Shown here piece by piece: positions 6,301 through 27,376 of a stretch of DNA of 35,696 nt. The position numbers and the translations under genes were made by a program. The DNA comes from Betaproteobacteria bacterium. GTDB taxonomy: Bacteria; Pseudomonadota; Gammaproteobacteria; Burkholderiales; SG8-39. The notes beneath the pieces were generated by a model that was not told the origin of the DNA, did no database searches, and saw only the letters and a list, made by a program, of their open reading frames with translations. Every line of letters starts with the position of its first letter. Positions within the stretch are counted from its first letter, which is position 1. The stretch lies in the NCBI GenBank assembly GCA_007280315.1, contig QYQC01000086.1:1-35696 (forward strand), given 5' to 3'.

Positions 6301-7926
6301 TCACTGCAGCGGCCGGATGCACCAGCTGCGCCAAATGTCGCGGTAGGCCGCCTCAAGCGCGCGGGCATAGGGGCGGGCCGCGGTAAGCGATGAATCGCGC
6401 ATGCGCTCGCGCAAGCCGGCACGCAAGGCTACGAGGCGGTTGGTGTCGTGCGCCAGATCGACCGCGATGCGCACATAGTCCTCGTCGCTGAGCGCAATCA
6501 GCTCATCCAGCCCCATGCTGCCGAGTATGCTCATTCCGGCGCGCGACTGGAAAATTGCGCCGCTGCGGGTAATCACCGGCACGCCCAGCCACAGCGCTTC
6601 GCAGGTGGTGGTACCGCCGTTCATGGGGAAGGTGTCGAGCAGGATGTCGATGTCCGCGTACAGCGCCCAGAAATCCTTGGTCGGCAGGCGATCGTGCAGG
6701 CTGAAGCGCTCTGCGGCGACGCCGGCTTGCGTCAGGGCGTCGCGTATGCGCTCGCGCCCCTGCTCCGGCACGGTCGTAAGCACAATGCGCGAGCCGGGCA
6801 CCTCCCCGAGCACGCGCGCCCACAGGGCCAGCATGCGCGGCGTGACCTTGCTCGCGCCGTTCATGGAGGCGAAGGTCACGCCGCCGCTCTTCTTCGCCGG
6901 GGACGGCGATACGTCCGGCATGTCTGAGCGCGGCTGGTAACACCACATGCAGCGCGGCAGGCGTATCAGCGTTTCGCGGTAGTAGCGCTCGGTCGCGCCG
7001 GGCGGGTCGCACACGCCATCGGTAATACGGTAGTCCATGGCGCGCATGCCGGTGGTGTTGGGGTAGGCGAGATAGGTCACCTGGATCGGCGCCGGCTTGC
7101 GCGCAAAAACCAGCAGGCGATTCTCGCGCAAATGGCCGGACAGGTCGATCAGGATATCGATGCCGTGGCCGCGAATCAGCTCGGCCGCCTGATCATCGTC
7201 AAGATCGATGATGTCATGCCAGTGATCGGCATACTGCGCCAGACGCCGGGTCGCGTCGTCGACGATACGGCCGCTGTAATAGCAAAACACTTCGATCGCG
7301 GCGCCGTCGTGCTGCTCCAGCGCCGGCGTGATGAAATAGCTCAGCGCGTGTTCGCGGAAATCGGCCGACAGGTAGCCGACGCGCAGACGCCGCTCCGGAT
7401 CGCGCGAATTTGCGTGGGGCTTGGACTGCGCCAGGAACGGGTCGGCGTGGATCCGCGCCCAGGCGACATGTTCCGCATACACCTCCTCAGGGCGCACGCT
7501 TTCGAGCAAAACCAGGATGAAAATAAGATTGGCGCGGGCGGCGTGCAGCCCCGGATCGATTTCGAGCGCCTTGCGAAAGTACACGACCGCTTCTTCCGAT
7601 CGACCAGCCTGGACCAAGATGCTGCCGAGGTTGCTGTGAAACACCGCGTCGTTCGGGCGTGCTTGAATTGAGCGCTCGAAATACTCCAGGGCAAATCCAA
7701 GATCGCGAATACGGTGCCCAGTCAGCCCCATGAAATGCAGTGCATCGGCGTGTCCAGGATCGATTTCAAGCACATCCTCGAACAGCAACTGCGCCCGCAC
7801 CAGATCGTTGGCGTCGAATAGTTCGCGCCCCTCGGCCATCAGTTCCGCCGTCGTTCGTACTCGTGGTGCCGCGCTCGGGGAAGCACGTCCTATGTTACGC
7901 AGCAGCGACTTGAACAGCATTCTCAT
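6301..7926 (-). CDS. SPINDLY/OGT-like O-linked GlcNAc transferase with TPRs, 541 aa
   Basis: This is the first of four consecutive OGT-like genes downstream of pilA. Clear TPR repeats lie at about residues 30-140 (AQLLFEDVLEIDPGHADALH, ALEYFERSIQARPNDAVFHS, AVVYFRKALEIDPGLHAARA). The catalytic part begins at RLRVGYLSADFREHALSYF, then DILIDLSGHLRENRL, KPAPIQVTYLAYPNTTG, FASMNGASKVTPR and NGGTTTCEALWLGVPVIT. This is the bacterial OGT (GT41) architecture, which transfers GlcNAc from UDP-GlcNAc to Ser/Thr in characterised relatives. The start could be the ATG at 7926 or the one at 7920 (MLFKSLL, closer to the paralogs); no strong ribosome site separates them. The pilA terminator lies between this gene and pilA, so a separate promoter or read-through must serve the array. 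I could not identify a convincing promoter in 7927-8059. Confidence 0.92.
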   Translation of the reverse strand: MRMLFKSLLRNIGRASPSAAPRVRTTAELMAEGRELFDANDLVRAQLLFEDVLEIDPGHADALHFMGLTGHRIRDLGFALEYFERSIQARPNDAVFHSNLGSILVQAGRSEEAVVYFRKALEIDPGLHAARANLIFILVLLESVRPEEVYAEHVAWARIHADPFLAQSKPHANSRDPERRLRVGYLSADFREHALSYFITPALEQHDGAAIEVFCYYSGRIVDDATRRLAQYADHWHDIIDLDDDQAAELIRGHGIDILIDLSGHLRENRLLVFARKPAPIQVTYLAYPNTTGMRAMDYRITDGVCDPPGATERYYRETLIRLPRCMWCYQPRSDMPDVSPSPAKKSGGVTFASMNGASKVTPRMLALWARVLGEVPGSRIVLTTVPEQGRERIRDALTQAGVAAERFSLHDRLPTKDFWALYADIDILLDTFPMNGGTTTCEALWLGVPVITRSGAIFQSRAGMSILGSMGLDELIALSDEDYVRIAVDLAHDTNRLVALRAGLRERMRDSSLTAARPYARALEAAYRDIWRSWCIRPLQ

Positions 7927-8098: not shown

Positions 8099-8515
8099 TT
8101 AACGACAGGTCGCTGGCAGGTACTTAGACGGCGTGCCTACGCATGCCCAGGTGATCGTGCCCGTCGATGTGTTGTATGTCGGCGTCATGGTGACAGTTAC
8201 AGCCTGGCCGACACTGGTCGAACGCGTGCTTCCCGTAACCGTAACCGTGCCGGTATCGGTCACCGAAGCCGTTACGATCTTTCCGACGATCGGAATGGTC
8301 ACGCCGGCGCCGGCGCTGATGGTATTGCTCGGACCAGTTTGAAACTTCTCCGAAATACCGGTACGAACGCCGCTGGCCGCAAGCATCAGTTCCGAAACTT
8401 TGGCGCGAACGGTGTAGTCCTGATAAGCCGGCAATGCCACCGCCGCCAAAATACCGATAATCGCGACCACGATCATCAGTTCGATCAGGGTAAAACCCTT
8501 CTGGATTGATTTCAT
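8099..8515 (-). CDS. pilA: Type IV major pilin PilA (prepilin)
   Basis: The 138-aa product is a classic type IV prepilin. A short leader MKSIQKG is followed by the peptidase cut before Phe, and then [20 protein letters not shown] with the conserved Glu at mature position 5. This helix anchors in the inner membrane and packs in the pilus core. Mature length is about 131 aa, normal for a major pilin, and two C-terminal Cys (125 and 137) can close the disulfide loop. The globular half is strikingly Thr/Ser-rich: 29 of the last 79 residues are Thr or Ser, and 21 of 41 between residues 82 and 122. That would suit O-glycosylation by the adjacent transferases (inference). Translation uses a strong AAAGGAGA site 7 nt upstream of the ATG. 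Transcription fits a sigma-54 promoter, as known for pilA under PilS/PilR in Pseudomonas and relatives. Confidence 0.95.
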
Positions 8516-10363: not shown

Positions 10364-11071
10364 TCAGCGCTGCGAACCGGCATAGAGCATGGCGTCGCGC
10401 TCGGCCCGCCACTCTTCAGCCATGGGACAATCTGCATACTCGGGAAAGTATGGCCCACCAATCGTGAAGTGCGCGAGCGAAATTTCCGCGCCAGGCGCAT
10501 CGTAGCCCACCAGATGATTCCAGCGCTGCGGCAACTCGCCTATCATGGCGTCGCTCTCCAGCCATTGGAACTGATGCAGTTGCAGGCCGCTCGCGCTATT
10601 GACGTAGTCCGGCGTCAATGATTTGCACCTGGCGTTATTGAACAGCATCACGCTGGACCAGTTCTTTTTCGAGTACGCGGTCTGGGCGGCGCCGAGAAAC
10701 TTCGTCGTTTCCCTCGGCCTGTGATCGTGCTTGACCACCTGTACGGCGTAGCGCTCATCGCGCAGATCCCACAGCCTGGCGACATCGTCGCGCATCAGCA
10801 TGTCGCAATCCATGAACAGGCTCCACCCCGCATAGTCCGACAAATACGGTGTTAGAAAGCGGGAAAAGGAAAAATCCGTCGATTGCAGCGCATGGCGTTC
10901 CCGCGTAAGAACTCGCTTGAGCTGTGACAGCGCCAACGGCGCTATCGCGACCGGCGCGCTGGCGCGCGCCTGGATGCTACGCGCAAGCACGTGATAGGCG
11001 ACTGTTTCGCGCGGATCGAATCCGACAAAAATCCTGATCAATCTATCCTCTGGTGCATCGACAACTATCAT
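10364..11071 (-). CDS. Glycosyltransferase, GT8-like fold
   Basis: The protein is 235 aa from the ATG at 11071, which I prefer to the track start at 11137. An AGGGG stretch lies a few nt upstream of 11071, and the extra N-terminal residues look non-conserved. The N-terminus IRIFVGFDPRETVAYHVL and the metal-binding MDCDML motif (D88-C-D90) are typical of GT8-type nucleotide-sugar transferases with a GT-A fold. Later features are KNWSSVMLFNN and an Asp-rich and Trp-rich C-terminal half ending in a PYFPEY segment. It is expected to be a cytoplasmic metal-dependent transferase; donor and acceptor cannot be told. It heads a two-gene unit with the TPR-GT9-like gene and is transcribed away from the plus-strand gene at 11227. 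Confidence 0.8.
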   Translation of the reverse strand: MIVVDAPEDRLIRIFVGFDPRETVAYHVLARSIQARASAPVAIAPLALSQLKRVLTRERHALQSTDFSFSRFLTPYLSDYAGWSLFMDCDMLMRDDVARLWDLRDERYAVQVVKHDHRPRETTKFLGAAQTAYSKKNWSSVMLFNNARCKSLTPDYVNSASGLQLHQFQWLESDAMIGELPQRWNHLVGYDAPGAEISLAHFTIGGPYFPEYADCPMAEEWRAERDAMLYAGSQR

Positions 11072-11177
11072 TTCTGCCCCTGTCCCCGGTCGAAAATAAT
11101 GCGCGCTGCCCTGTTGCCGGTCGCGGACATAAGTCACGGTGGCTGCTCAATTCGCTCTTCATTCGCGTCGGTCGGAC

Positions 11178-11723: not shown

Positions 11724-13406
11724 TCAGGGGCAATACCCCGGAATTTTGCTCTCGTCGACGCGGTCGATCTGGTTCGCATCCAGAAACTTCTCTGCGTAGC
11801 GCAGGTATACTTTTTGCCGGATGAATACGTCGAACAGGTCCGGATCGATGTGCCCTCCCTCTTTGAATTTCCCGAGGATCTGCAGCGATTCGGTCAGCGT
11901 CTTGCCTTTCTTGTAGGGCCGGTCCCTGGCGGTGAGCGCTTCGAAAATATCGGCTATGCCCATGACTCGCGCCTGCACCGACATCTGCTCGCGCGTCAGG
12001 CCGCGCGGATAGCCCTTGCCGTCCATGCGCTCGTGATGTCCGCCGGCGTATTCTGGAACGCGCTGAAGGTGCTTGGGCCAGGGCAGCGCCTCGAGCATTT
12101 TGATCGTCGCGACAATATGGTAGTTGATGACCTCGCGCTCCTTCGACGTAAGCGTGCCGCGGGGAATGTTTAGGTTTTCGATTTCATCGTCGGTAAGAAA
12201 ATGTGCGGTATTGCCCGACTGGTCCAGCCACTTGTAGTCGGCGATCTTTCTCACGTTTGCCTGCGCCTCGGGCGGCATGAATTCCCCGCCGATATTGCAT
12301 TTGCGCAGAAACTCGCGGTCCTGGTCGAACTGGCGCAGGCGCGCGCGGTAGGTCTGTTCCAGATTATTGCTGCGTTCGCGCAGCGTCAATTCGTCCAGCC
12401 CCTGCCGCAGCAGCGCGGCACTGTCTTTCAACAGATCGATCTCGGCGTCGCGTTTGAGCACCTCGAAGCGGGTGTCGATCAGGTGAACACGATCGAAGAT
12501 CGACTCCAGCTTGGTTGCCTTGTCCACCACGTGCACCGGGGTCGTAACCTTGCCGCAATCGTGCAGCAGGCCCGCGATCTTCAACTCATAGCGGTCCTTG
12601 TCGCTCATATCGAAATCCATGAGCGGACCCTGCTTGGTCTCGTTCACCGCTTCGGCAAGCAGCATCGTAAGCTCGGGCACACGCTGACAATGTCCGCCGG
12701 TATAAGGGGATTTTTCGTCGATCGCCGAATTGATCATGGCGATGAACGATTCGAACAGCGCCTCCAGCTGGTTTATCAACTGCCGATTGGTGAGCGCAAT
12801 CGCGGCCTGCGAGGCAAGCGATTCCGCCAAGCGCTGGTCCGGATCGGAAAACGCCACGACCTCGCCGCTCACCGAATCCTGGGAGTTGATCAACTGAAGA
12901 ACGCCGATGATCTCGTTCTCGTGATTCTTCATCGGCACGGTGAGAAAGGATTTCGAACGATAGCCGGTCTTTTTGTCGAAGCTGCGCGTGCCGGTGAAGT
13001 CGAAGCCTTCCGCGGTATACGCATCGGCGATATTGACGGTCTGCCCGGTCAGTGCCGCAAACGCAGCCACCATCTGGTTGTTGGGCTGGCCATCCTTGCC
13101 GTACAAGTGAATCGGATAGAACGGTATGGGCGTTCCGGTGGTTCCGCCCATGGCGATATTGAGCGACTGCGTGCGCATGATCTCGAATTTCAGCCGCTTG
13201 GAGCCGTCTTCTTCAGTCAGCAGATACAGCGTGCCGCCGTCGGCGCGGGTGATTGTCTTGGCCGCGAGCAGGATGCTTTCCAGCAGCCGGTTGATGTCCC
13301 GTTCGGCCGACAGCGACGCGCCAATCGCGTTCAGCTGCTCCAGGCGCCGGAACATGTCTTCCACCGTCTGGACCGCCATCGTCTGCCCGCTGTGTTCCGC
13401 CTCCAC
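11724..13406 (-). CDS. GAF-HD-GYP cyclic-di-GMP phosphodiesterase
   Basis: The 560-aa protein has an N-terminal GAF domain (about residues 15-210; KTGYRSKSFLTVPM, EIIGVLQLINSQDS) and a C-terminal HD-GYP domain. Catalytic features are complete: H282-D283 in LLHDCGK, and H457-H458-E459-RM-D462-GKGYP. HD-GYP enzymes hydrolyse c-di-GMP to pGpG or GMP, so it should lower c-di-GMP in response to a ligand or partner at the GAF domain. A roughly 110-aa insertion between the HD part and the GYP motif (DRVHLIDTRFEVLKRD onward) is longer than in minimal HD-GYP domains. The start is a GTG at 13406 with AGGA 8 nt upstream; the ATG at 13379 (MAVQTVEDM) is the alternative. It is the last gene of the signalling array, 32 nt after the GAF-PilB gene. 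It is soluble, with no membrane segments. Confidence 0.93.
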   Translation of the reverse strand: MEAEHSGQTMAVQTVEDMFRRLEQLNAIGASLSAERDINRLLESILLAAKTITRADGGTLYLLTEEDGSKRLKFEIMRTQSLNIAMGGTTGTPIPFYPIHLYGKDGQPNNQMVAAFAALTGQTVNIADAYTAEGFDFTGTRSFDKKTGYRSKSFLTVPMKNHENEIIGVLQLINSQDSVSGEVVAFSDPDQRLAESLASQAAIALTNRQLINQLEALFESFIAMINSAIDEKSPYTGGHCQRVPELTMLLAEAVNETKQGPLMDFDMSDKDRYELKIAGLLHDCGKVTTPVHVVDKATKLESIFDRVHLIDTRFEVLKRDAEIDLLKDSAALLRQGLDELTLRERSNNLEQTYRARLRQFDQDREFLRKCNIGGEFMPPEAQANVRKIADYKWLDQSGNTAHFLTDDEIENLNIPRGTLTSKEREVINYHIVATIKMLEALPWPKHLQRVPEYAGGHHERMDGKGYPRGLTREQMSVQARVMGIADIFEALTARDRPYKKGKTLTESLQILGKFKEGGHIDPDLFDVFIRQKVYLRYAEKFLDANQIDRVDESKIPGYCP

Positions 13407-13438
13407 TCAGGAATTCCTCATCGCCGCGCGCGCTGCGG

Positions 13439-15814
13439 CTACTTGATGCAAACCGCGCGCACTGTCGGCATGTCGGTAAGTCCCATCAGGACTTTTTCCA
13501 TACCGTCCATTTTCAGCGTGCGCATGCCTTCGTTCAGGCAGCAGGCCAGCATCTCCGCCACGCGCGCGTGCTCCTGGATCAGCTTTTTCAGCGGATCGGT
13601 GCCGACCAGCAGCTCGTGCAGGCCGACCCGGCCCTTGTAGCCGCTTCCGCCGCAGGTGTCGCAGCCGATCTTCTTGTACATGGTGAACTGCCCCTTGTCG
13701 TTGGCGTAGTCCTTGACCCATTCCTTGTACACGTTCTCGTAGCCCTCCTTGGGATTCTGCTTGAATGTCAAGGTATTCGTCAGCTCGCTGCAGTATTCGG
13801 TGAGGAAGGCTTTCATTTCCTCCCCGGCGGGGTTGTACGCCTGTTTGCACTTGGCGCACAGGCGCTTCGCCAGGCGCTGCGCGAGAATGCCGAGCAAGGC
13901 GTCGGAGAAGTTGAACGGATCCATGCCCATGTCGAGCAGACGGATGATCGATTCCGTCGCGCTGTTGGTGTGCAGAGTGGCGAATACCAGGTGACCGGTG
14001 AGCGAAGCCTCGATGCCGGTTCCCACGGTTTCCTTGTCGCGCATCTCGCCCACCATGATGATGTCTGGATCGGCGCGCAGGAACGCCTTCATCACCATGG
14101 CGAAGTCCAGCCCGGCCTTCTTGTTCACCTGTACCTGGCGCAATCCCTTCTGGGTGATTTCGACCGGGTCCTCGGCGGTCCAGATCTTGGTGTCCGGCGT
14201 ATTCAGGTGTTTCAGCACTGAGTGCAGCGTCGTGGTCTTGCCCGATCCGGTCGGCCCGCAGACAAAGAACAGCCCATAGGGCTTGCTCACGACCACCTTC
14301 AGCGTCTCCAGGTTGTGCGGAGTAAGTCCGAGCTTTTCGAGCGGAATCGGCTCGCCCGCGGCAAGAATACGCATGACGATGTCTTCGACACCGCCCTGCG
14401 TCGGTATGGTGGCTACCCGCAGTTCGATGTCCAGCGGTCCGAACTTCTTGAACTTGATCTTGCCGTCCTGCGGCCTGCGCTTCTCTGAAATATCCAGATC
14501 GCACATGATCTTGACCCGGGCAACGATCGCGTTTCGATAGGAAGCAGGTATCTCGATGTAGGGCGCCAGCGATCCGTCCTTGCGAAAGCGGATCTCGGTC
14601 TTGCCCTTGCCCGGATAGGACTCGACATGGATGTCGGAGGCGCCCTGGTTGTATGCGTCGATGACGATTTTGTTCACGAGCTTCACCAACTCGTTATCGG
14701 CCGCCTGCGACAGATCGTCGCCAGCACTCTCGCCGCCCGCGGCGTCGTCCTGATCGTCCAGTCCGGAGAGCATGTCGCCGATATCGCCGGTGTCGAGCAC
14801 TTCGGCGCCGTAGAATATGTTCAGCGTTTCCTTGAACTCGCGCTGGGTGGTCACGCGGTAGATCAGCTTGCTCTTTGGAAACACATTCTGCACGATGCGC
14901 GAACTTTTTACCCGCTCCGGATCGAGGCACAGCACGATCAAGCCGTCCTTGCCGTCGTCAATCGGCACCCACTGATTCTGTTCGACGTACTCCCGTTTCA
15001 GGTTCTTCAGCAGATCCGGCGGCTTGATGCGGTCCGCCTTGTGCGGCTCATAGGGCACACCGAAAAATTTCGAAAGGGCCTGGCCGATGGCGGGCAACTT
15101 GACCTGAAATTCCTCCACCAGCACCTGCTCCACATCCACCGCTTTCTTGCGCGCCGAACGCGCCGCCAGATCGAACTCGGCCGGAGAAATCACCGCGTCG
15201 CTGACCAGGAAATCGTATTTGGTCTTGATAATCTGGGGTTTTTGCCGCTGCCTGAAAGCAATCGCCAGGGTCTGCGCCAGCTGGGTCACGCCCTCTTCCA
15301 TCAGCGCGGTAAACGGTACACCGGCCTTGTTGTTGATAATCTGGATCACGCCGATCAACTCGTCGCCGTCCAGCACCGGCGCGGCCAGCACCTGTTTGGT
15401 GCGATAGCCGGTGCGTTTGTCCACTTCCTGCAGGAATCGCAGGTTGGGATTGATCGCCTTCAGTTCCGATTCGTCGTAGCAGTCCTTGATGTTGATCATC
15501 TTCTTGGAGAAGGCGACATAGCCGCCCATCGAATGCTCGGCGATCGGCAGCTTCAGGTCCTTGAACGAATTCAGCCCGGTCTTGACCTTGGATACGATCG
15601 ACTGCTTGTCTTCGCCGACGATGTAAATGGTGAGGCGGTCGGCGTTGAACAGGCTGCAGATGTCGGACGATACCTCGAGCATGATCTCGTCGATATTGGA
15701 GGTCGCGTGAATCTTGTTGGTGACGTTCTGCAGGTTCTTCGAGAACATCAGCCTGGCGTTGACGTCAGCCGACCCGGTGGCCGCAGCCGGTGGTGTATTC
15801 AGCACTGCACTCAT
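13439..15814 (-). CDS. GAF domain fused to a PilB/GspE-type assembly ATPase
   Basis: The 791-aa protein is a type II/type IV pilus assembly ATPase with an added N-terminal GAF domain. GAF covers about residues 30-195 (KRTGYRTKQVLAAPV, ELIGVIQIINNKAG), a GspE/MshE N-terminal type domain about 205-345, and the ATPase core about 375-760. Walker A is GPTGSGKT (520-527), the Walker B region is DPDIIMVGEMRD, and the His box is TGHLVFATLHTNSA. The zinc-type pairs CAKC and CDTC flank an unusually long spacer. Such ATPases are cytoplasmic hexamers that drive pilin extraction and pilus growth or type II secretion. No pilC, pilD or secretin genes are here, so it may serve pili encoded elsewhere, including the nearby pilA. 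It starts at an ATG with GAGG 5 nt upstream, behind a terminator-like hairpin and a REP-like hairpin, so it may have its own promoter. Confidence 0.93.
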   Translation of the reverse strand: MSAVLNTPPAAATGSADVNARLMFSKNLQNVTNKIHATSNIDEIMLEVSSDICSLFNADRLTIYIVGEDKQSIVSKVKTGLNSFKDLKLPIAEHSMGGYVAFSKKMINIKDCYDESELKAINPNLRFLQEVDKRTGYRTKQVLAAPVLDGDELIGVIQIINNKAGVPFTALMEEGVTQLAQTLAIAFRQRQKPQIIKTKYDFLVSDAVISPAEFDLAARSARKKAVDVEQVLVEEFQVKLPAIGQALSKFFGVPYEPHKADRIKPPDLLKNLKREYVEQNQWVPIDDGKDGLIVLCLDPERVKSSRIVQNVFPKSKLIYRVTTQREFKETLNIFYGAEVLDTGDIGDMLSGLDDQDDAAGGESAGDDLSQAADNELVKLVNKIVIDAYNQGASDIHVESYPGKGKTEIRFRKDGSLAPYIEIPASYRNAIVARVKIMCDLDISEKRRPQDGKIKFKKFGPLDIELRVATIPTQGGVEDIVMRILAAGEPIPLEKLGLTPHNLETLKVVVSKPYGLFFVCGPTGSGKTTTLHSVLKHLNTPDTKIWTAEDPVEITQKGLRQVQVNKKAGLDFAMVMKAFLRADPDIIMVGEMRDKETVGTGIEASLTGHLVFATLHTNSATESIIRLLDMGMDPFNFSDALLGILAQRLAKRLCAKCKQAYNPAGEEMKAFLTEYCSELTNTLTFKQNPKEGYENVYKEWVKDYANDKGQFTMYKKIGCDTCGGSGYKGRVGLHELLVGTDPLKKLIQEHARVAEMLACCLNEGMRTLKMDGMEKVLMGLTDMPTVRAVCIK

Positions 15815-15840
15815 AGTGACCTCGGCATTAGATCCAGAAC

Positions 15841-15864
15841 CGCGCAGCCGGCGGCTGCGCCTAC
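15841..15864 (-). repeat. REP-like hairpin with 5' GTAG in the leader of the GAF-PilB gene
   Basis: On the minus strand GTAG is followed by GCGCAGCC-GCC-GGCTGCGC, a perfect 8-bp stem with 3-nt loop, 27 nt before the GAF-PilB start. A GTAG tetranucleotide in front of a GC-rich hairpin is the mark of REP elements mobilised by RAYT transposases. Only one copy was seen in the window. Confidence 0.5.
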
Positions 15865-15889
15865 AACGGCATATTTCACACTATACGTC

Positions 15890-15924
15890 AAAAAAAGCCG
15901 GCCGCGCTCCGCACTGCCGCGACC
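15890..15924 (-). terminator. Intrinsic terminator after the cNMP-rhodanese gene
   Basis: On the minus strand GGTCGCG pairs with CGCGGCC (7 bp, one G-U) around an 11-nt loop, followed after GGC by a run of seven T. It lies 38 nt past the stop of the cNMP-rhodanese gene and may split the array into an upstream six-gene unit and a downstream two-gene unit, or allow partial read-through. Confidence 0.6.
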
Positions 15925-15961
15925 GCCCGGTCGTGAAGAACGCCCGACGCGCTTCCCGCAC

Positions 15962-17032
15962 TCACGCCGCTCGATCCCCGCCCCACAACCCGCCTTCAAG
16001 CACGAAAACGTGATAGCCGCGCTGCGCCAGCAGGAAAGCGGCAGCCGAACTGCGCCTGCCGCTCTGGCAGTAGACGATATATTCCTCGCCGATATCCAGT
16101 GCACCGAAGGCGTTGCGGATTTCTGACAAAGGAATATTGCGCGCACATGGCAGGCAGTCGTGCTGGTATTCGGATGGATAGCGCACATCTATCCAGTGCG
16201 CGCCGTTCAAAGTTTTCTGTTTTGCCTGCTCCATGTTGATCGCGTGCAGCAAGGGTTCGCGCAGCAGCATGTTGAAATCCTCCCGCCTCAGCCGCAACAG
16301 GCTGCCCGGCGTCTTCATCGTGACAGTGGCGTTACGCGTCGCATCCGACACCAGCGCCTCCTCGCCGAAAGTGTCGCCGCTCTTCAACTCGGCCAGCGTC
16401 ATATTGACGCCGCCTACCCTGCGCTCCACCTGGCACCTTCCCGACTCCACCAGGTAGTAATAATCGCCCTCCGCGCCTTCGCTGATGATCACGTCGCCGG
16501 ATCCCGCTTCGATGCGCTCGAAGCGCTGCAATAGTTCGCCGATATGCGCCGGTGGCAATTCGGAAAAGGCGCCGAAGCGCAGGCTGTTGATGCCGAGCAG
16601 GCCCGTGGTGACGCCCCAGTTGGCTCCAGGCGTTGACGCTGACGCGGGCGGCTCCATGCCGGGCTGATTCTGCATTGCCACCTGATCCCAGGTAAGCATG
16701 ACATCCAGCAGATCGTCGTCGATGCGCAGTAGCCGCAGGTCGGTCACCGCCTTGGCTGCGCCAAAACCACGCCGCTTGCCCAAAGGATGGCGCGCATCTG
16801 CGGACCCTCCGACGATGACCTCGGAGCTGCCCTCGCCATAGGTGAGGGCCAGCTCGCCGCTCAGCAGGTACACCGACTGACCCGCGATCGAACCCGGGCC
16901 AAACGGCTCAGCAGCGCGGCGCACAGGCTCGATGGAGCACAGCTTGGCGAGTTCCTTCAGCCGGGCGCCGGAAAGCGACGACAGCGGATCGAGCATACCC
17001 AAAGCTTCCACGCTGATTCTTGTGACTGCCAT
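15962..17032 (-). CDS. Cyclic-nucleotide-binding protein with C-terminal rhodanese domain
   Basis: The start is taken at the ATG at 17032 (MAVTRISVEALGML), 37 nt after the preceding stop; the track ORF overlaps the upstream gene. Length is 356 aa. A degenerate cNMP-like fold fills about residues 20-140 and a good cNMP-binding domain about 185-300. The second has the phosphate-binding cassette FGEEALVSDATRNATV, keeping the Glu and Arg that bind the ring phosphate and ribose in CRP-type domains. A single rhodanese domain follows (WIDVRYPSEYQHDCLP, VYCQSGRRSS) with a candidate catalytic Cys at 322. There is no helix-turn-helix, so it is not a transcription factor. It is probably a cytoplasmic cAMP-controlled sulfurtransferase or redox/persulfide sensor. 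The adenylate cyclase and a putative cAMP phosphodiesterase are directly upstream, which supports cAMP as ligand (inference). Confidence 0.88.
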   Translation of the reverse strand: MAVTRISVEALGMLDPLSSLSGARLKELAKLCSIEPVRRAAEPFGPGSIAGQSVYLLSGELALTYGEGSSEVIVGGSADARHPLGKRRGFGAAKAVTDLRLLRIDDDLLDVMLTWDQVAMQNQPGMEPPASASTPGANWGVTTGLLGINSLRFGAFSELPPAHIGELLQRFERIEAGSGDVIISEGAEGDYYYLVESGRCQVERRVGGVNMTLAELKSGDTFGEEALVSDATRNATVTMKTPGSLLRLRREDFNMLLREPLLHAINMEQAKQKTLNGAHWIDVRYPSEYQHDCLPCARNIPLSEIRNAFGALDIGEEYIVYCQSGRRSSAAAFLLAQRGYHVFVLEGGLWGGDRAA

Positions 17033-17069
17033 GCGCGTTTCCGTGGCGATTGACGTATTTATGGTGCCG

Positions 17070-17837
17070 CTAGAACTCGAAAACCTGGTTGTTCTGCAGC
17101 ATGCGCGGTTTGTACTGTCCGGCACAATCCTCAATTTCCTGCATCGTCAGTTCGATCTCACCCGGTTTCAGATGGGTGATGAAAATCTCCGCATCGCGCT
17201 CGAGTTTTACCAGCTCCTCAGCAAGCAGGCTCGGGCAAAAATGCTTGGCTGTTATCGCAAGTTCCCGCTCGCGGTTGCAGAAGGCAGTCTCGATAATCAA
17301 GTAGCGCAAATTGGCAATCTTGTTGACTTCCTTCCACAACGGATCGTGTGTCGTGGTGTCGCCTGTAAACACCAGGCTGGCGTCGCCCGAATCGATCTGG
17401 AAGCCCACTGCAGGCACCACATGGTTTGCCGGCAGCGACGTAATTTTTCGCCCTTTCAGCTCCACCGTCTTGCCGAGCTCCAATACCTCGTAACGCATGA
17501 ACGGCTTGCTCGGTGTGGGAATTTGCGTGAAGTCCGGCCAAATGCTCCAGTTGAAAATATGGTTGCGGATGATCTCCAGCGTCGGCTCGGTCGCGTGCAC
17601 GGTGAGCGGCTTGTTGCGCATGCCGCCGACGGTGTCGACCAGGAACGGTATGGAGCAAATATGATCCAGGTGCGAATGCGTGACGAATATGTGGTCGATC
17701 AGCATCAGCTCCGCCAGCGATACGTCGCCGACCCCGGTACCGGCGTCGATCAGGATGTCATTGTCGACGAGCATCGACGTGGTGCGCAGATGCCGTCCGC
17801 CGATTCCGCCGCTGCAACCGAGGATTCTCAGCTTCAT
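17070..17837 (-). CDS. Metallo-beta-lactamase-fold hydrolase, likely class II cyclic-nucleotide phosphodiesterase
   Basis: The 255-aa protein begins directly with the fold (MKLRILGCSGGIGG). It has the dinuclear-metal motif THSHLDH (H54, H56, D58, H59), then TGDTTTHD, and ends with IFITHLKPGEIE. The THxHLDH motif followed by an Ile-rich segment, plus the late FITHxKPGE strand, resembles class II 3',5'-cAMP phosphodiesterases (yeast PDE1, Vibrio CpdP) more than beta-lactamases or glyoxalases. RNase Z-like proteins share part of this pattern, so the specificity is not certain. It is cytoplasmic, with no signal peptide. It lies 12 nt downstream of the adenylate cyclase and 37 nt upstream of the cNMP-binding protein, which makes a cAMP-degrading role attractive. 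Confidence 0.8.
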   Translation of the reverse strand: MKLRILGCSGGIGGRHLRTTSMLVDNDILIDAGTGVGDVSLAELMLIDHIFVTHSHLDHICSIPFLVDTVGGMRNKPLTVHATEPTLEIIRNHIFNWSIWPDFTQIPTPSKPFMRYEVLELGKTVELKGRKITSLPANHVVPAVGFQIDSGDASLVFTGDTTTHDPLWKEVNKIANLRYLIIETAFCNRERELAITAKHFCPSLLAEELVKLERDAEIFITHLKPGEIELTMQEIEDCAGQYKPRMLQNNQVFEF

Positions 17838-17849
17838 CGCGCGCGTCGG

Positions 17850-20072
17850 CTACTTGGTCTTGAAGGTCGTTACGCCGTCCCAATCCGCAGGGGGCGGTTC
17901 GATACGGCACTGGGCAATACGCTCGAAGTACATCTGGTAGAGCACGGAATCCGGTGACATGCGCTGCACATTCAGCAGATTCATCTCCGCCTCGTCCCAG
18001 TTCTGCGCACGATAGGCTTTGAGCGCTTTGTGCCACAGCTTGATTTCATCCTTGATCTTTTGATCGACCTCGCTATCGACGCCGATCGGCTCGAAGATCG
18101 CCACCGGTTCGTCCTTGCCTTTGACCTTCACCCGATCGAGTTCGCGAAACACGATATCCTTTACCGCCACTTTCGTATTCGGGCCGACGATAACCCCGAC
18201 GCCGTAGATCCGGGTCAGGCCCTCCAGCCGCGATCCGAGATTGACTGCGTCGCCCATCACCGTGTAGGCCTTGCGCAGCTTGGAGCCCATATCGCCGACG
18301 CTCATGCTGCCGGTATTGACGCCGACGCCGATGCGTATGTCAGGCCAGCCGCGCTCCAGCATCTTTGCGCGCAAGTTGTCGAGTTCACGCTGCATTGCCA
18401 TGGCGCTGATCACCCCCTGGCGCGCATGCTCGGGATCGGCCACCGGCGCGCCCCAGAAAGCCATGATGGCATCGCCGATATACTTGTCGAGGGTGCCGCG
18501 GTGGTTACGGATCACCAGACTCATCGCGGTAAGGTAATCGTTGATGAACTGCGACAGATCCTTTGGTGACAGGCTTTCGGAGATCGAAGTAAACCCGACG
18601 ATATCGGAGAACAGTACAGTAAGTTCCTCGCTCTTGCCTTCCATGCTGTAGCGCTGCGGATCCTTCGCCATTTCATCGACCAATTCCGGCGGCACATACT
18701 GACCAAACAGCTCGGTGAACTGACGTTTGCTGCGCGATTCGACGAAGTAACCCCAGGACATGTTGAACGCAAACAAGGCAGCAATCATCAGCAGACTGGA
18801 TGCAAGGGGCAGAATGATGCCGCCCTTGGTCCACAGCGCAACGTCGAGGCCGGTAATGAGCGCCGTCGCCAGCAGAGACGCCAGAGTGGCCTTGAACGGA
18901 CTCAGCAGCGGCACCAGCAACGACAGCGCGACGCCGCCGATCAGCAGCAGCACTACCTCGGTGCCGAGGATGTAGGCGGGTTTGTGCTTGAAATTGTTAT
19001 CCAGCATTGAGGCGATCATGTTGGCGTGGATTTCCACACCGGGGAACACGCTGCCCACCGGCGTGGATCGCAGGTCGAGCAGACCCGGCGCGGTGGTGCC
19101 GATCAGCGCGATCTTGCCGCGCAGTTCATCCTTGGGTACTTTCCCGAAATACACGTCGGCAAGCGAAACGTACTTGAAGCTGCCGCGTGTGCCGCGGTAA
19201 GGAATGAACGCGCTCACGGTATCATCGACCGGAATGGTTACCGGCCCCACTTTCAGCCATTCCAGCCCGGAGTAACCGTCACTGGTGGGTTTCTCGGACG
19301 AAAATCCCGGCTCCACCTTGGGGTAGTTCGCCAGCACCCGGATGACCGCAAGCGAAAGCGCTTCGTAGTAGTCGCCGTTGTATTCGGCGAGTATCGGTAC
19401 CCGCCGCGACACACCGTCGTTATCTACCAGCGGATTGAAGTGCCCTGCGTTGGCAGCGTTGGCCTGGAATTCCGGCAAATTGGCGCCATAGCCGCGCCAG
19501 TGGGTGAATCGGATATTCCTGCCCTGGAACGCGCCTTTTTCCAGCACCGGCTTGGGTAGTGCGCCCGAGCGCACGGCGTTTTCGTCGCTGTTGAAATAGT
19601 ATCCGAGTACGACGGGTCGTCCTTTGATCGTCTCTGCCATGATGCGGTCGTAGTCGAGTTCCGGCCGCAATTCCTTGAGCGCCGATTGAAACGAGCCCAC
19701 ATCCCTGAGCTTGCCCTTGGCGAGCTTCTCGAGCACCGGCAGTCCCGAGCCTTCGTCGGGTTCCGCGAACACGATGTCGAAGCCGGCGATGACTATGCCG
19801 TATTCATCGAAAAGCTTCTTCAGCAGGGCGGAGAACTTGTCGCGGCGCCAGGGCCAGTGCCCGAGCGCGGTCTTGTCCACGCTGCGCTCGTCGATATCGA
19901 GGATGACGATTCGCGGGTCCACACCACCGGGCATGGTGAGAGCGAGCCGCGTGTCGTAGATTATGTTGTCGAGCCGGGTGATGAGCCCGATATTGAACAG
20001 TTCGGCTACATGGCCGACGAACACCAGCATCAAAGCAAGGCTAAGGACGATCCTGACGATATGCTTTTTCAA
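17850..20072 (-). CDS. CHASE2-domain membrane adenylate cyclase (class III)
   Basis: The product is 740 aa. The layout is an N-terminal membrane helix (about 5-25), a periplasmic CHASE2 sensor (about 30-355; IVILDIDERSVDKTALGHW), three membrane helices (about 362-445) and a cytoplasmic class III cyclase domain (about 480-665). Metal Asp residues are D490 (FSDIVGF) and D534 (DKYIGDAIM). K530 is the purine-specifying Lys of adenylate cyclases, and N611 and R615 are the transition-state residues. The second specificity position is Thr (T604), the pattern of class IIIb enzymes, some of which are stimulated by bicarbonate. A short TPR-like tail follows. The start is TTG with a strong AAAGGAGA site; no better ATG is nearby. 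It should make cAMP from ATP in response to a periplasmic cue. The phosphodiesterase-like gene starts 12 nt after its stop. Confidence 0.93.
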   Translation of the reverse strand: MKKHIVRIVLSLALMLVFVGHVAELFNIGLITRLDNIIYDTRLALTMPGGVDPRIVILDIDERSVDKTALGHWPWRRDKFSALLKKLFDEYGIVIAGFDIVFAEPDEGSGLPVLEKLAKGKLRDVGSFQSALKELRPELDYDRIMAETIKGRPVVLGYYFNSDENAVRSGALPKPVLEKGAFQGRNIRFTHWRGYGANLPEFQANAANAGHFNPLVDNDGVSRRVPILAEYNGDYYEALSLAVIRVLANYPKVEPGFSSEKPTSDGYSGLEWLKVGPVTIPVDDTVSAFIPYRGTRGSFKYVSLADVYFGKVPKDELRGKIALIGTTAPGLLDLRSTPVGSVFPGVEIHANMIASMLDNNFKHKPAYILGTEVVLLLIGGVALSLLVPLLSPFKATLASLLATALITGLDVALWTKGGIILPLASSLLMIAALFAFNMSWGYFVESRSKRQFTELFGQYVPPELVDEMAKDPQRYSMEGKSEELTVLFSDIVGFTSISESLSPKDLSQFINDYLTAMSLVIRNHRGTLDKYIGDAIMAFWGAPVADPEHARQGVISAMAMQRELDNLRAKMLERGWPDIRIGVGVNTGSMSVGDMGSKLRKAYTVMGDAVNLGSRLEGLTRIYGVGVIVGPNTKVAVKDIVFRELDRVKVKGKDEPVAIFEPIGVDSEVDQKIKDEIKLWHKALKAYRAQNWDEAEMNLLNVQRMSPDSVLYQMYFERIAQCRIEPPPADWDGVTTFKTK

Positions 20073-20076
20073 GTCG

Positions 20077-20084
20077 TCTCCTTT
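20077..20084 (-). promoter_or_regulatory. Ribosome binding site supporting the TTG start of the cyclase
   Basis: AAAGGAGA on the minus strand sits 4 nt before the TTG at 20072. Its strength and spacing, and the MKKHIVRIVLSLALML membrane N-terminus that follows, decide for TTG. Confidence 0.8.
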
Positions 20085-20103
20085 CTAGTCCGGGGGAGAC
20101 GGG

Positions 20104-20940
20104 TCAGCGTTTGAAGAAAAATTCCACCTTCACACCGGCAAGCTCGATGACGTCGTGGTCATTGAGCGCATGCGCCTGCTGCTCTATCGGTTTGCCGTTG
20201 ACAATGGGCTTGTTGGCGCCTTCAACGTGGGTGATGAAAAAGCCCTGTGGCCGGCGGGTGATGACCGCGACCTGCACGCCGGGCTTGCCCAGAGTGGTCA
20301 GCGGCTTGGTCAGTTCGAGTTCCTTGCCGGCATTGCCGCCGGACATGAGCTTCAGCATGGCGTGCCGAGCCGGAGCGGCAGGGGCAGGGGCAGGAGACGG
20401 CGCATGAGTCGGCGTCGGCACTGACGCCGGAGTGGATGCAGAAACACCCACAGATGCGGCGGTTATGCCGACCTGGGTGGCGGCATGCGATCTGGCGGCC
20501 GCGTCAGCTGGAGGCGTTGCCGCTGCCGCGCCCGCGGGCGCGGTCTCGACGTGGGCCGGTGCCGGGGCAGCTGGCGCAGGGGGCTTTCGCATCGCGCCGG
20601 GGCGGAGAATCATGGTCTTCTCGAAGTCGGCGGCCTTGACGGCGCCTGGCTGCGCTTCGGCCATGTACTTGAGCTTGTACTTGCCCAGTTCGATTACATC
20701 GTTATTCTGCAGAAAATGTTTCTTTACCGTTTTGCCGTTGACGAATGTGCCGTTGGTGCTGCCCAGATCCTCGAGGAACGAATCCGCGAGTATGGTCACA
20801 ATTACAGCGTGCTCGCCGCTGACGGCCAGATTGTCGATCTGGATATCATTGTGCGGTTTGCGCCCGATGGTGGTGCGCTCCTTGGAAAGCTGAATTTCCT
20901 TGAGCACCAGACCGTCCATACTGAGTATTAGCTTCGCCAT
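20104..20940 (-). CDS. Double FHA-domain protein with Ala/Pro-rich linker
   Basis: The 278-aa protein has a canonical N-terminal FHA domain (about 5-95) with IGR (26-27), S41, H44 and STNG (61-64), the residues that hold phosphothreonine. An Ala/Pro-rich flexible linker (about 116-195) leads to a C-terminal FHA-like domain (about 197-276) that has lost most phosphothreonine contacts (TLGKPGVQVAV, VNGKPI). Just after the first FHA domain is FEKTMILRPG. A Thr in such a short acidic/hydrophobic context resembles the phospho-acceptor of GarA-type FHA regulators, so T109 could be phosphorylated by the adjacent kinase and bound by an FHA domain (inference). It is cytoplasmic and lies between the PP2C phosphatase (15-nt gap) and the cyclase (31-nt gap), so it may carry the kinase signal to cyclase or motor. 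Confidence 0.9.
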   Translation of the reverse strand: MAKLILSMDGLVLKEIQLSKERTTIGRKPHNDIQIDNLAVSGEHAVIVTILADSFLEDLGSTNGTFVNGKTVKKHFLQNNDVIELGKYKLKYMAEAQPGAVKAADFEKTMILRPGAMRKPPAPAAPAPAHVETAPAGAAAATPPADAAARSHAATQVGITAASVGVSASTPASVPTPTHAPSPAPAPAAPARHAMLKLMSGGNAGKELELTKPLTTLGKPGVQVAVITRRPQGFFITHVEGANKPIVNGKPIEQQAHALNDHDVIELAGVKVEFFFKR

Positions 20941-20955
20941 AGCGTTGTCCTCGTG

Positions 20956-21780
20956 CTATCTAAACCATCCGAAAATTTTCTTTGCCAAACCCTGTCCGGC
21001 CGGGTAATCACGCAGAATCTTCACCAATACCACCGATACGTTGTCGCGCCCGCCGTTGTCGTTCGCCATCTGCACCAGCTGTTGCACTGCCAGATTCAGA
21101 TTGGCGCCCAGGGCCTGCAGCGCCATGCCGATATCTTCATCGCTCACCATATCCGAGAGCCCGTCGGAGCAGAGCAAATAGATATCGCCCGGCTGCGTGT
21201 CGTATTCGTGAATCTCCGGCTCCACCGCCGGATCGATGCCCATTGCCCGCGTCACCAGATTCTTGTTCGACGAGCCCTTCGCCTGCTCCTTGGTCAGCAT
21301 GCCGGCATCGATCTGCTCCTGCAGCAACGAATGGTCCTTGCTCACCTGGCTGAATTCGTCGCCGCGCATACGGTACAGGCGCGAATCGCCGATATGCGCC
21401 ACCATCACCTTGTTATCGTAAAACAGCGCCACTACCAGCGTCGTGCCCATGCCGGCGTACTGAGGTTGACTCTGCGCGGCCTGGAATATCGACGAATTGG
21501 CCTTGGCAATCTGCTGCTGCAGCATTTTCGCCGCAGCCTTCTGTCCGCTTTGCGGGTCAACCTCATGCGGTGCGTGCTCCTCAAGCATCTGCCGCAATTC
21601 GGTGGTAAGCACCGTTGTGGCCATACCGCTTGCCACTTCACCCGCATTGTAGCCCCCCATGCCGTCTGCCAGCACCACCAGGCCGTGTTCCGGGACCGAA
21701 GCGATCGAGTCCTCGTTGTTTGAGCGCACCATCCCGGGGTCGGTATGGCTGGCCACTTCCAGGGCTTGGCTCAGGTCCAT
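20956..21780 (-). CDS. PP2C-family Ser/Thr protein phosphatase
   Basis: The 274-aa protein covers a complete PP2C domain. Metal and phosphate motifs in order are VRSNNEDS (E23, D24), VLADGMGG (D39-G40), AGMGTTLVVAL, HIGDSRLYR, LLCSDGLSD and GGRDNVSVVLV. This is the set found in PstP/Stp-type bacterial phosphatases, Mn/Mg-dependent enzymes that reverse Ser/Thr kinases. There is no membrane segment, unlike PstP of actinobacteria. Twelve nt separate it from the upstream kinase gene and 15 nt from the FHA gene, the usual kinase-phosphatase-FHA grouping. It probably removes phosphate from the kinase, the FHA protein and other targets of the array. The ATG at 21780 follows directly on the kinase stop. 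Confidence 0.94.
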   Translation of the reverse strand: MDLSQALEVASHTDPGMVRSNNEDSIASVPEHGLVVLADGMGGYNAGEVASGMATTVLTTELRQMLEEHAPHEVDPQSGQKAAAKMLQQQIAKANSSIFQAAQSQPQYAGMGTTLVVALFYDNKVMVAHIGDSRLYRMRGDEFSQVSKDHSLLQEQIDAGMLTKEQAKGSSNKNLVTRAMGIDPAVEPEIHEYDTQPGDIYLLCSDGLSDMVSDEDIGMALQALGANLNLAVQQLVQMANDNGGRDNVSVVLVKILRDYPAGQGLAKKIFGWFR

Positions 21781-21792
21781 GCGGCGGGCTTC

Positions 21793-24405
21793 CTAGGCTC
21801 CGGCATCCGTGCCGACACCGCCGACCGGTGCCGCACCGGCAGCGAACGCCGCGCGCAGCGCTGCGGCGAATTCTTCTCCGGTCTGGTAGCGATCCTCCGC
21901 CTCCTTGGCCATCGCCTTGTCAAGGAACGCCACCAGCGCTGGCGGTATTCCCGGCCGGACCAGGAAGATTTCGGCCGCCGGTTCGTTGGCAATCTTGAAC
22001 ATCAGCTGCGCCATTGAATCTCCGACGAAAGGCAACGCGCCGCAAAGCATCTGGTACAGGCTCACCGCCAGCGAAAACAGGTCGCTGCGTCCGTCCACCT
22101 TCTTGCCCGAGAGCTGCTCTGGCGACATATAGGATGGCGTGCCCAGCACCATGCCCGTTTTGGTCTTGGAGGAATCGGTTATGCGCGCAATGCCGAAGTC
22201 GGTGACCTTGGGCGCGTCGCTTTCCGGCTCGTACATGATGTTCGCCGGCTTGATATCGCGATGAACGATGTTCTGCTTGTGCGCGTAGCCGAGCGCATCG
22301 GCGACGCGCGCGATGATCGACACAACCTTGTCCATCGGCAGCAGGTTGTCCGGTTTGGTAAACGGGATCAGGTCCTTGCCTTTGAGCAGTTCCATTGCGA
22401 TATAGCACAGGTCGTGCTCCTCACCCGCATCGTAAATGGTGACGATATTGGGGTGCGACAACCGCCCTGCGGTCTCCGCCTCGCGAAAGAATCGCTCCTT
22501 CACCTCGACCAGCTCCTCCGCCTCGAACTCCTGCGACAACGCCATGGTTTTGATCGCCACCACGCGGCCGATCTTCGGGTCCTTGCCCTGGTAGACCACG
22601 CCCATCGCGCCCTTGCCCAGCTCTTTTTCCACCTGGTAGCGGCCGAGCATGGGCTTTTCCGCGCCCGCGCCCAGCGACATGGAGCCGCCGGGATGGCTGG
22701 ACGCCCCGCCAAGGACTATCGTCTCCGACATCGCCCTGGCGCGATTCAGCCGCGACTCCAGGTCGCGGAACTTCGGATTGTGATTGGCCATGTACTGAAA
22801 CACGTTTTCCGCCTTGTTGAACTGGCGTTTGCGCTCGAAATCGAGCGCCAGGTTGTACAGGTTGTCCATTACGCCATCATCCAGCGGCACCTTGCGGAAC
22901 TTGTCCCACGCCATGTCGAGCTGGCCCTGCCCCTGAAACGCGAGCCCGAGCATGCGGTTGGACTCGGCCGAATCGGCGTCAGACTTGACCTTGCCCGCTT
23001 CGGTGAGGACGAAGCGTTTGGTCACCAGCAGTACATGGCCGATAACCAGCAGCACCAGCGGCAGCATCAGTTGCAGCCACATCGCACTGGTGGTCATGAG
23101 CACGAAGTGTGTAATCAGCAGCAATCCGATCAGCGCCGCGGTAATCATCGCGCCCATGCCGGCTTTTAGCCGCGGCAGGATTCCGATCAGATAAGCGGCG
23201 ATGAGTACGAATACCAGAAGCTCAACCCAGTAGCCCCAGATCGGCGCGACGAAAAAATGCTCGGATAGAATCGAGGACACCGAATGCGCGAGCACCAGCA
23301 CCGGCGGCATCGCGGGCGACACCGGCGTGATGGCCGCGCTGCCCAGGCCAGGAGCAGTGGGCCCGATCAGAACTATCTTGTCCTGATATTTGCTCACCGG
23401 GATTTTGCCGCTGATGACGTCGTAGAACGAATCGACCGGGAACGCGGGCCGCCCGTCTCGATCCTTGTAGAAATAGGCGTACATCCGCGTAAACGGATCG
23501 GTGACTATGTTGAGCCGTCCCAGCGATACCTTCTCACCTGGCTGGACTTTGATGTCGCCCACGCCGAGGTTGAGACTGCGAGCTGCGACCATCATCGACA
23601 GCGACGGATAGATCTGCCCGAAATAATCCAGCACCAGCGACTCGGCGCGGGTGCCGCCGTCCACATCGGGCGTCGAGTTGAGGTATCCGAGCGCGGCCGA
23701 GGCCTTGCCCAGGATTTCAATCGGATAATCGATTTTACGCGTCGGCAATATCGAGTCGTCAGTCACTTTGACGGCTTTGGGCAGACTGTTCCTAGCTACA
23801 AACTCAGGCAGAGGCTTGTCCGGTTTCCCCAGCGCGGCACCGAGGTCGAACAATGTCATTGGCACCACGTTACCCGCATGCGCAAAGCTTTCGGAAAGCC
23901 TGCGGTCGGTGTTGAGCTTTTGCTCTGCCTCCTTCAGCAGCGCGATGAACTGCGCGAGTTCGCCCGTCACCGGCGCCGCCGCGGGCGCTGTCACGGGCGC
24001 AATCGGCGCCTGCGCCGCGTCCGCGGGCACAACCGCTGCCGGTGCGCCCGCCCCGGTCAGGTCGAGCAGCTTGGTGACGTAGGTGTAGCCCGGGTCGGTC
24101 TGAGGCTCGGAGAACAACACGGTATAGGCGATGACTTTCGCCTTCGCCGCCGCCAGGCTATCGGTGAGTTTCGCCAATACCTCGCGTGACCAGGGCCAGC
24201 GGCCAAGGTTGGCCAAGCTCTGCTCGTCGATGGCGATAACTGCGATCTTGTCGAGCGGGGTGCGCGATGTCGCGATTACGCCCAGGTCATAGGCCTTGCG
24301 CTCGAGACTGGGAACAAGATCGCTGGCACGTGCGAACAGGGCGACGCAAACGACCACGGCGACGCCGAGAAACCAGTCGGTCTTCCAAAAACCCGCTTTC
24401 GTCAT
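21793..24405 (-). CDS. CHASE2-domain transmembrane Ser/Thr protein kinase
   Basis: The start is set at the ATG at 24405 (MTKAGFWKTDWFLG) with GAGGA upstream; the track ORF adds 38 unlikely residues. Length is 870 aa. One membrane helix (about 11-28), a periplasmic CHASE2 domain (about 30-380; VIAIDEQSLANLGRWPW) with an Ala/Pro-rich insertion, and three membrane helices (about 385-465) are followed by a short TPR-like segment and a PknB-type kinase domain (about 590-850). Kinase residues are intact: GKGAMG loop, K619 (VAIK), HRDIKPAN (H715, D717), D736 in DFG, and SPEQ in place of APE. The kinase signals on cytoplasmic Ser/Thr in response to a periplasmic cue. It shares its CHASE2 plus three-helix layout with the cyclase of the same operon, so the two may read the same cue. 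It is the first gene of the array. Confidence 0.94.
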   Translation of the reverse strand: MTKAGFWKTDWFLGVAVVVCVALFARASDLVPSLERKAYDLGVIATSRTPLDKIAVIAIDEQSLANLGRWPWSREVLAKLTDSLAAAKAKVIAYTVLFSEPQTDPGYTYVTKLLDLTGAGAPAAVVPADAAQAPIAPVTAPAAAPVTGELAQFIALLKEAEQKLNTDRRLSESFAHAGNVVPMTLFDLGAALGKPDKPLPEFVARNSLPKAVKVTDDSILPTRKIDYPIEILGKASAALGYLNSTPDVDGGTRAESLVLDYFGQIYPSLSMMVAARSLNLGVGDIKVQPGEKVSLGRLNIVTDPFTRMYAYFYKDRDGRPAFPVDSFYDVISGKIPVSKYQDKIVLIGPTAPGLGSAAITPVSPAMPPVLVLAHSVSSILSEHFFVAPIWGYWVELLVFVLIAAYLIGILPRLKAGMGAMITAALIGLLLITHFVLMTTSAMWLQLMLPLVLLVIGHVLLVTKRFVLTEAGKVKSDADSAESNRMLGLAFQGQGQLDMAWDKFRKVPLDDGVMDNLYNLALDFERKRQFNKAENVFQYMANHNPKFRDLESRLNRARAMSETIVLGGASSHPGGSMSLGAGAEKPMLGRYQVEKELGKGAMGVVYQGKDPKIGRVVAIKTMALSQEFEAEELVEVKERFFREAETAGRLSHPNIVTIYDAGEEHDLCYIAMELLKGKDLIPFTKPDNLLPMDKVVSIIARVADALGYAHKQNIVHRDIKPANIMYEPESDAPKVTDFGIARITDSSKTKTGMVLGTPSYMSPEQLSGKKVDGRSDLFSLAVSLYQMLCGALPFVGDSMAQLMFKIANEPAAEIFLVRPGIPPALVAFLDKAMAKEAEDRYQTGEEFAAALRAAFAAGAAPVGGVGTDAGA

Positions 24406-25895: not shown

Positions 25896-25920
25896 ATCGT
25901 TCTTCCTTTTCAGCGAGATT

Positions 25921-25998: not shown

Positions 25999-26039
25999 GG
26001 TTTCGTCCTTTGCGGTGAACGGTTATCCTCGTACTGCGG

Positions 26040-27311: not shown

Positions 27312-27376
27312 GTTGCCGATCTCCCAAAATTTTTGCGGCAGACGAAAGGCTGCTTGCCCCCGACCTGCCGCGCTGG

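Follow-up and report, generated by a model that had tools for sequence, protein, structure and literature searches.

The eight-gene array found in the window (the whole 35,696-nucleotide stretch of DNA that was analysed) is best explained as a whole as a control operon for the type IV pilus that contains the extension motor itself and is probably gated by cAMP. The motor is a PilB-like ATPase with an extra N-terminal GAF domain (GAF-PilB), which very probably took over from the canonical PilB in many Burkholderiales, a replacement that is well supported. The genes of the array, in order of transcription, and those downstream of it are as follows.

21793..24405, minus strand: CHASE2-transmembrane Ser/Thr protein kinase, PknB-like, array gene 1 (Pfam: CHASE2 8.6e-49, Pkinase 5.7e-54)
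20956..21780, minus strand: PP2C (Stp1-type) Ser/Thr phosphatase (NF033484 255.9 bits, above the cut-off of 230)
20104..20940, minus strand: double FHA-domain protein, a phosphothreonine reader (PF00498 5.4e-25, two stretches)
17850..20072, minus strand: CHASE2 class III nucleotidyl cyclase, predicted adenylate cyclase (CHASE2 2.8e-52, Guanylate_cyc 1.2e-21)
17070..17837, minus strand: MBL-fold hydrolase, predicted cyclic-nucleotide phosphodiesterase of the class II type (PDEase_II 4.7e-12)
15962..17032, minus strand: cNMP-binding and rhodanese protein, an optional member (PF00027 1.6e-18, PF00581 1.9e-13)
13439..15814, minus strand: GAF-MshEN-PilB, inferred to be the type IV pilus extension ATPase (T2SSE, PF00437, 1.6e-111)
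15200..15736, minus strand: GAF domain of this ATPase, about residues 27-205 (best PDB match 1YKD, CyaB2, 1.9e-28)
11724..13406, minus strand: GAF-HD-GYP protein, predicted c-di-GMP phosphodiesterase, last array gene (HD_5 8.5e-41, GAF 1e-13)
10364-11137, minus strand: gene without a Pfam match, between array and pilin
8699-10336, minus strand: TPR protein, between array and pilin
8099..8515, minus strand: type IV pilin (PF00114 3.5e-13, the single match in the window's genome, G000)
6301..7926, minus strand: TPR-GT41 (SPINDLY/OGT-like) glycosyltransferase beside the pilin (Glyco_transf_41 2.9e-56)

All eight ORFs lie on the minus strand; the original prediction also placed them on one strand, and its statement that most gaps are under 40 nt agrees with the distances of 12, 15, 31, 12, 37, 147 and 32 nt (5' to 3' of transcription, counted from the likely ATG starts), six of the seven being 12–37 nt and one 147 nt. 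The kinase starts at the ATG at 24405 in an open frame that extends to 24519, and the cNMP-rhodanese protein at the ATG at 17032 in a frame that extends to 17134. The eight genes of the earlier list are real, but the cNMP protein in it is optional, being found in 10 of 60 loci, and the pilin gene at 8099-8515 was omitted. The catalytic motifs of the array proteins are intact and conserved among relatives. The kinase has VAIK, HRD and DFG, the PP2C phosphatase has its Asp motifs, and the ATPase has Walker A/B, the Asp and His boxes and the four zinc cysteines, conserved across 61 sequences of the ATPase, which places it in the T2SSE superfamily of type IV pilus and type II secretion ATPases. 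In Pfam, the MBL protein falls into PDEase_II/Lactamase_B_2, the HD-GYP protein combines GAF with HD/HD_5, and the ATPase combines GAF, MshEN and T2SSE. Both the kinase and the cyclase carry CHASE2, which is a periplasmic sensor domain.

The grouping is an operon that many environmental Burkholderiales share, to an extent far beyond chance. A close relative of the ATPase occurs in 90 of 200 sampled genomes of this order, and the loci of 60 of the 90 were searched with the eight proteins of the window. The same order, kinase-PP2C-FHA-cyclase-MBL-(cNMP)-PilB-HD-GYP, recurs on one strand in these 60 relatives, so that the conservation on which the original prediction had staked its proposal of one unit is indeed present. 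The ATPase is found in all 60 loci, the MBL protein in 56, FHA in 51, PP2C in 50, HD-GYP in 47, the cyclase in 38, the kinase in 36 and the cNMP-rhodanese gene in 10 (L043 included); these counts are lower bounds, because contig ends truncate a number of loci. The median gaps in relatives, mostly below 50 nt, are operon-like (kinase-PP2C 7, PP2C-FHA 17, FHA-cyclase 70, cyclase-MBL 6, MBL-PilB 46 and PilB-HD-GYP 11 nt). The kinase and cyclase, or the HD-GYP gene, are absent from some loci, and the full wiring is therefore not obligatory. The MBL protein accompanies the ATPase most constantly (56/60, versus 36/60 for the kinase), and one genus, g20, retains the MBL and ATPase genes alone (L062, L087, L091 and L092), which makes this pair the minimal unit. 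The named relatives include environmental Betaproteobacteria MAGs, Rhodocyclaceae and Candidatus Desulfobacillus denitrificans. In gammaproteobacterial relatives the array genes are little linked, with the exception of L227 (genome G319, same class, other order), where relatives of the cyclase, HD-GYP and MBL genes lie, partly in other orientation, near a GAF-PilB of 40% identity; this arrangement is possibly an older form of the grouping. An account of the operon was not found in the open-access literature, in which Ramlibacter tataouinensis is mentioned only as carrying three PilB paralogues (PMC3164672).

The GAF domain of the ATPase is a good, if unproven, candidate for a cyclic-nucleotide receptor. 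By sequence, CyaB2 (1YKD, 1.9e-28), PDE6, PDE10, PDE5 and PDE2 rank first, alongside the GAF of PmGH, and fold comparison with a confident model of the ATPase N-terminus agrees with this, the matches including the Lcd1 GAF solved with cAMP. The residues of CyaB2 in contact with cAMP, R291, T293, I308 and D356 (PMC4411481), correspond to R60, T62, V/I77 and D132 of the ATPase, which are kept in 61, 60, 59 and 61 of 61 ATPases, respectively; the domain thus has the contact residues of a cNMP-binding GAF, with Thr at the position of CyaB2 N359. Anabaena CyaB2 and the mammalian PDE2/5/6/10 are the closest solved GAFs and have equivalents of these four residues, but the PilB GAF differs from them in being a single GAF, in not keeping NKFDE and in having an ATPase as its output. 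The NKFDE motif is typical of most characterised cNMP GAFs; in the alignment of PilB GAF relatives its N and F are kept, and K, D and E are not conserved. The GAF of the HD-GYP protein also matches PDE5 (1e-20) and CyaB2 and keeps the T, I and D, with Gly/Ala in place of the arginine equivalent to R291 in 46 of 46 sequences, and it is a weaker candidate receptor than the GAF of the ATPase. In addition, the GAF of PmGH, itself an HD-GYP protein (4mcw), scores well by both sequence and fold, so membership of this GAF class is not proof of the ligand.

It is possible, though rather unlikely, that the operon and the motor are as described but the GAF binds another ligand or is structural, with control exerted mainly by the kinase, PP2C and FHA proteins. 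The unconserved NKFDE, the arginine missing from the GAF of the HD-GYP protein and the similar GAFs beside HD-GYP in PmGH are in line with such an arrangement, whereas the invariance of R60 and D132, the near-invariance of T62, the best matches to cAMP/cGMP GAFs by sequence and fold, and the MBL phosphodiesterase accompanying the ATPase more often than the kinase does (56/60 against 36/60) all argue for a cyclic nucleotide. On balance we lean towards cAMP as the ligand of the ATPase GAF, and the constant MBL-ATPase pairing fits a predicted enzyme that removes the ligand of the ATPase. The original prediction had assigned the role of dedicated effector to the cNMP protein; with just 10 of 60 loci carrying it, the cNMP-rhodanese protein is discarded as the main cAMP effector, and since such an effector is mostly absent, the GAFs of the ATPase and the HD-GYP protein are the likelier cAMP receptors, a role for them that the original prediction had left out of account.

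For c-di-GMP, the RLG motifs of MshEN are absent in GAF-PilB and in the aligned canonical PilBs of the beta group, which disposes of direct c-di-GMP sensing by the MshEN domain of the ATPase; c-di-GMP is therefore linked to the array only through HD-GYP. The motif is likewise missing from the PilB of Xanthomonas and Pseudomonas (PMC8389850), and the PilB-PilZ-FimX system of these genera resembles the array in placing a PilB without the c-di-GMP motif under second-messenger control; there, however, c-di-GMP acts via FimX and PilZ, whereas GAF-PilB has its putative sensor built into the motor protein, with cAMP as the likely ligand. MshE of Vibrio cholerae is similar in that the N-terminus of a pilus ATPase senses a second messenger, as GAF-PilB putatively does, but MshE binds c-di-GMP through the MshEN motifs missing here. 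A further PilB-like subfamily of about 790–870 aa and 45–51% identity was seen in loci L206-L211; the L206 paralogue retains the RLG motif and may therefore be a real c-di-GMP receptor.

The enzymes that would make and remove the nucleotides are encoded in the same array. The catalytic domain of the cyclase has P. aeruginosa CyaB (3r5g) and other adenylate cyclases among its closest solved structures, and it contains the metal-binding Asp pair, the adenine-specifying Lys and Asp, and the Asn and Arg of a class III adenylate cyclase in conserved columns, within the stretches FSDIVGF, DKYIGD and MGDAVNLGSR. Moreover, a class III cyclase is present in 88 of the 90 genomes with GAF-PilB, versus 54 of 110 others, and this includes genomes whose array lacks the cyclase; in two of the 90 none was found. 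The model of the MBL protein (pLDDT 95.3) is nearest in fold to YhfI, RNase Z, Apyc1 and yeast PDE1, and its HxHxDH site (H54, H56, D58 and H59) is invariant, as expected of a PDE1/YhfI-like enzyme. It shares fold and site with the class II phosphodiesterases B. subtilis YhfI, Apyc1 and yeast PDE1, but at about 16–20% identity, and its activity is predicted; YhfI itself prefers cAMP/cGMP (PMC9117128). The score against the equivalog NF041851 is below the cut-off (31 versus 400 bits), and an assignment as RNase Z is rejected (73 bits against a cut-off of 293). The HD-GYP protein has the HD, HHE and GYP motifs of an HD-GYP phosphodiesterase, conserved in 46 sequences. An insert of about 110–130 residues, variable in relatives, lies in its HD-GYP domain between HD and the next metal-ligand His (window 12101-12500). 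A GAF-HD-GYP protein activated by cAMP is Tlr0485, which matches the last array gene in its domain pair, and in both Tlr0485 and the GAF-GGDEF protein Lcd1 a GAF couples cAMP to c-di-GMP turnover (PMC8846402), although for neither is an operon with a pilus motor, a kinase or an FHA protein known.

The ATPase shares its core, the zinc site and the MshEN-like domain with the canonical PilB (TIGR02538), the extension-motor role being inferred, but it has the additional N-terminal GAF and lies in a signalling operon beside a pilin rather than before pilC. It scores below the TIGR02538 cut-off (464 versus 675.65 bits), forms its own clade in the tree apart from the canonical PilB, and sits in the array, not directly before pilC-pilD; GAF-PilB is thus outside the canonical PilB family by score, clade and position, yet its predicted way of working is that of a type IV pilus extension system. 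It is accompanied by the parts of such a system, namely PilQ, PilC, PilD and pilin, with PilQ in 89 of the 90 GAF-PilB genomes of the order. Among 164 PilQ-positive genomes, 39 have both ATPases, 50 have GAF-PilB only, 66 the canonical PilB only and 9 neither, these being raw counts of matches above the criteria that ignore shared ancestry and come in many cases from draft genomes. The GAF-only genomes represent 18 families, and GAF-PilB is the sole evident PilB in about a quarter of the sampled Burkholderiales, the window's genome included.

The position that the canonical gene occupies in the conserved order CorC-pilB-pilC-pilD-coaE was read directly in the GAF-only genomes. It is without an intact pilB in 45 of the 50, being empty in 42 and holding a truncated remnant of the canonical pilB directly before pilC in three (G065, G189 and G002; loci L232, L243 and L254); in a few of the 45, CorC was not found upstream, and there is still no PilB before pilC in the stretch fetched. 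The remnants are truncated, frame-shifted or diverged, with the ATP-binding half gone, and they show the loss of the old motor. In four further genomes (G036, G132, G081 and G123) the slot is occupied by an ATPase of the GAF-PilB clade without the GAF (L117:3171-5096, L198, L199 and L200), which is nested inside this clade in the tree, as though the new motor had been copied into the old position; the GAF-PilB array is also present in these genomes. The remaining GAF-only genome is G126. As a control, PilB was found in seven of seven slots checked in genomes with a canonical PilB. In the window's own genome (locus L116) the slot is empty, and a draft-assembly artefact is rejected there because a single contig carries CorC, pilC, pilD and coaE together, CorC and pilC being 200 nt apart. 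Matches of 630 bits to TIGR02538 in G069 and G189 were considered as hidden canonical PilBs and discarded, as they lie in Msh-type loci (L259 and L260). Genus g20 (G015, G063, G146 and G183) has two PilB-like ATPases left, and the other one of G146 adjoins a GspF-like gene.

Thus, of the pilus or secretion ATPase originally proposed, the pilus part stands and can be narrowed to the type IV pilus, because PilQ is near-universal (89/90), 45 genomes have nothing or only a decayed gene in the usual pilB position, and the array is followed by a pilin. GAF-PilB could instead be an accessory ATPase of a minor or alternative pilus, with another PilB-like ATPase driving the main pilus despite the empty slot. 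Most genomes do have 3–7 PilB-type T2SSE ATPases, of which the GspE/MshE types could in principle help, and in the 39 PilQ-positive genomes with both the canonical PilB and GAF-PilB the latter may therefore be a second motor. However, pilC, pilD and PilQ remain in the 45 genomes without an intact slot pilB, the remnants show its loss, the other ATPases adjoin GspF- or MshG-like genes where their neighbours were examined, and a pilin gene is next to the array, which renders the accessory role improbable.

The pilin 3.2 kb downstream of the array is the sole PF00114 pilin found in the window's genome, and in 37 of the 60 loci a pilin lies at most about 3.4 kb downstream. With one to three PF00114 pilins per sampled genome, we estimate the chance of such an adjacency at about 1 percent. 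The TPR-GT41 protein beside the pilin is possibly a pilin modifier. It belongs to tandem TPR-GT41 (OGT-like) genes at 3-7926 of the window with 66% G+C, compared with about 60% elsewhere, and GT41, Wzy_C ligase or TPR genes are near the pilin in relatives too (L047, L072 and L055), which suggests pilin glycosylation. On the other side, upstream of the array (24975-35694), a formyltransferase, a CoA-transferase and oxalyl-CoA decarboxylase-like pair, a TctABC-type transporter, TerC and formate-THF ligase look like an oxalate/formate locus; a formyltransferase-domain gene is upstream of the array in 7 relatives as well.

Two other assignments have very little to recommend them. The kinase-PP2C-FHA triad is known from type VI secretion, where it forms the PpkA-PppA-Fha threonine-phosphorylation pathway, and the FHA protein matches TagH at 44 bits, but the TagH cut-off is 120 bits, type VI genes were not identified in the loci examined, and the array has a CHASE2 sensor kinase and pilus neighbours, so that a type VI pathway adjoining pilus genes by chance is rejected as hardly credible. 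An anti-phage (Pycsar-like) or other defence unit, which a nucleotide cyclase with a cNMP effector and the PADLOC matches (cyclase domain to PycC, kinase domain to PD-T4-6) might evoke, is just as far-fetched and is rejected too, since the matches are generic and at domain level, the toxic effector of Pycsar is absent, most loci lack the cNMP-rhodanese protein and the linked genes belong to the pilus.

Type IV pili are known to respond to cAMP by way of Vfr and transcription, and to c-di-GMP by way of FimX, PilZ or MshEN. For the cAMP-gated operon favoured here we propose, with the odds evenly balanced, that this lineage swapped its canonical pilus ATPase for a cAMP-receptor paralogue, so that cAMP gates polymerisation at the motor, and that the cyclase, the phosphodiesterase, the c-di-GMP phosphodiesterase and the phospho-Ser/Thr module were brought together in one operon. 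A periplasmic cue would act on both CHASE2 proteins, the kinase and the cyclase. The cyclase, presumably sensing something outside the cytoplasm, would make cAMP, which would bind the GAF of the motor and alter pilus extension directly, and the MBL enzyme would degrade cAMP and reset the motor. The GAF-HD-GYP protein, probably controlled by a cyclic nucleotide too, would lower c-di-GMP in parallel, and a rise in cAMP may thus favour pilus activity and lower the sessile signal, if the sign of the regulation is as supposed. Furthermore, the CHASE2 kinase and PP2C would provide a reversible phospho-Ser/Thr mark as a second input to the motor machine, the presumed target, with the FHA protein as its reader.

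A motor that carries its own cyclic-nucleotide sensor, if true, would let cAMP act on pilus extension directly and fast. The exchange of a core component also offers a clean example of evolution, in which the old gene can still be seen in decay, and annotation pipelines can wrongly label many Burkholderiales as 'PilB-less'. In addition, with the two-gene form of one genus, which consists of the phosphodiesterase and the motor, two purified proteins are enough to test the key claim.
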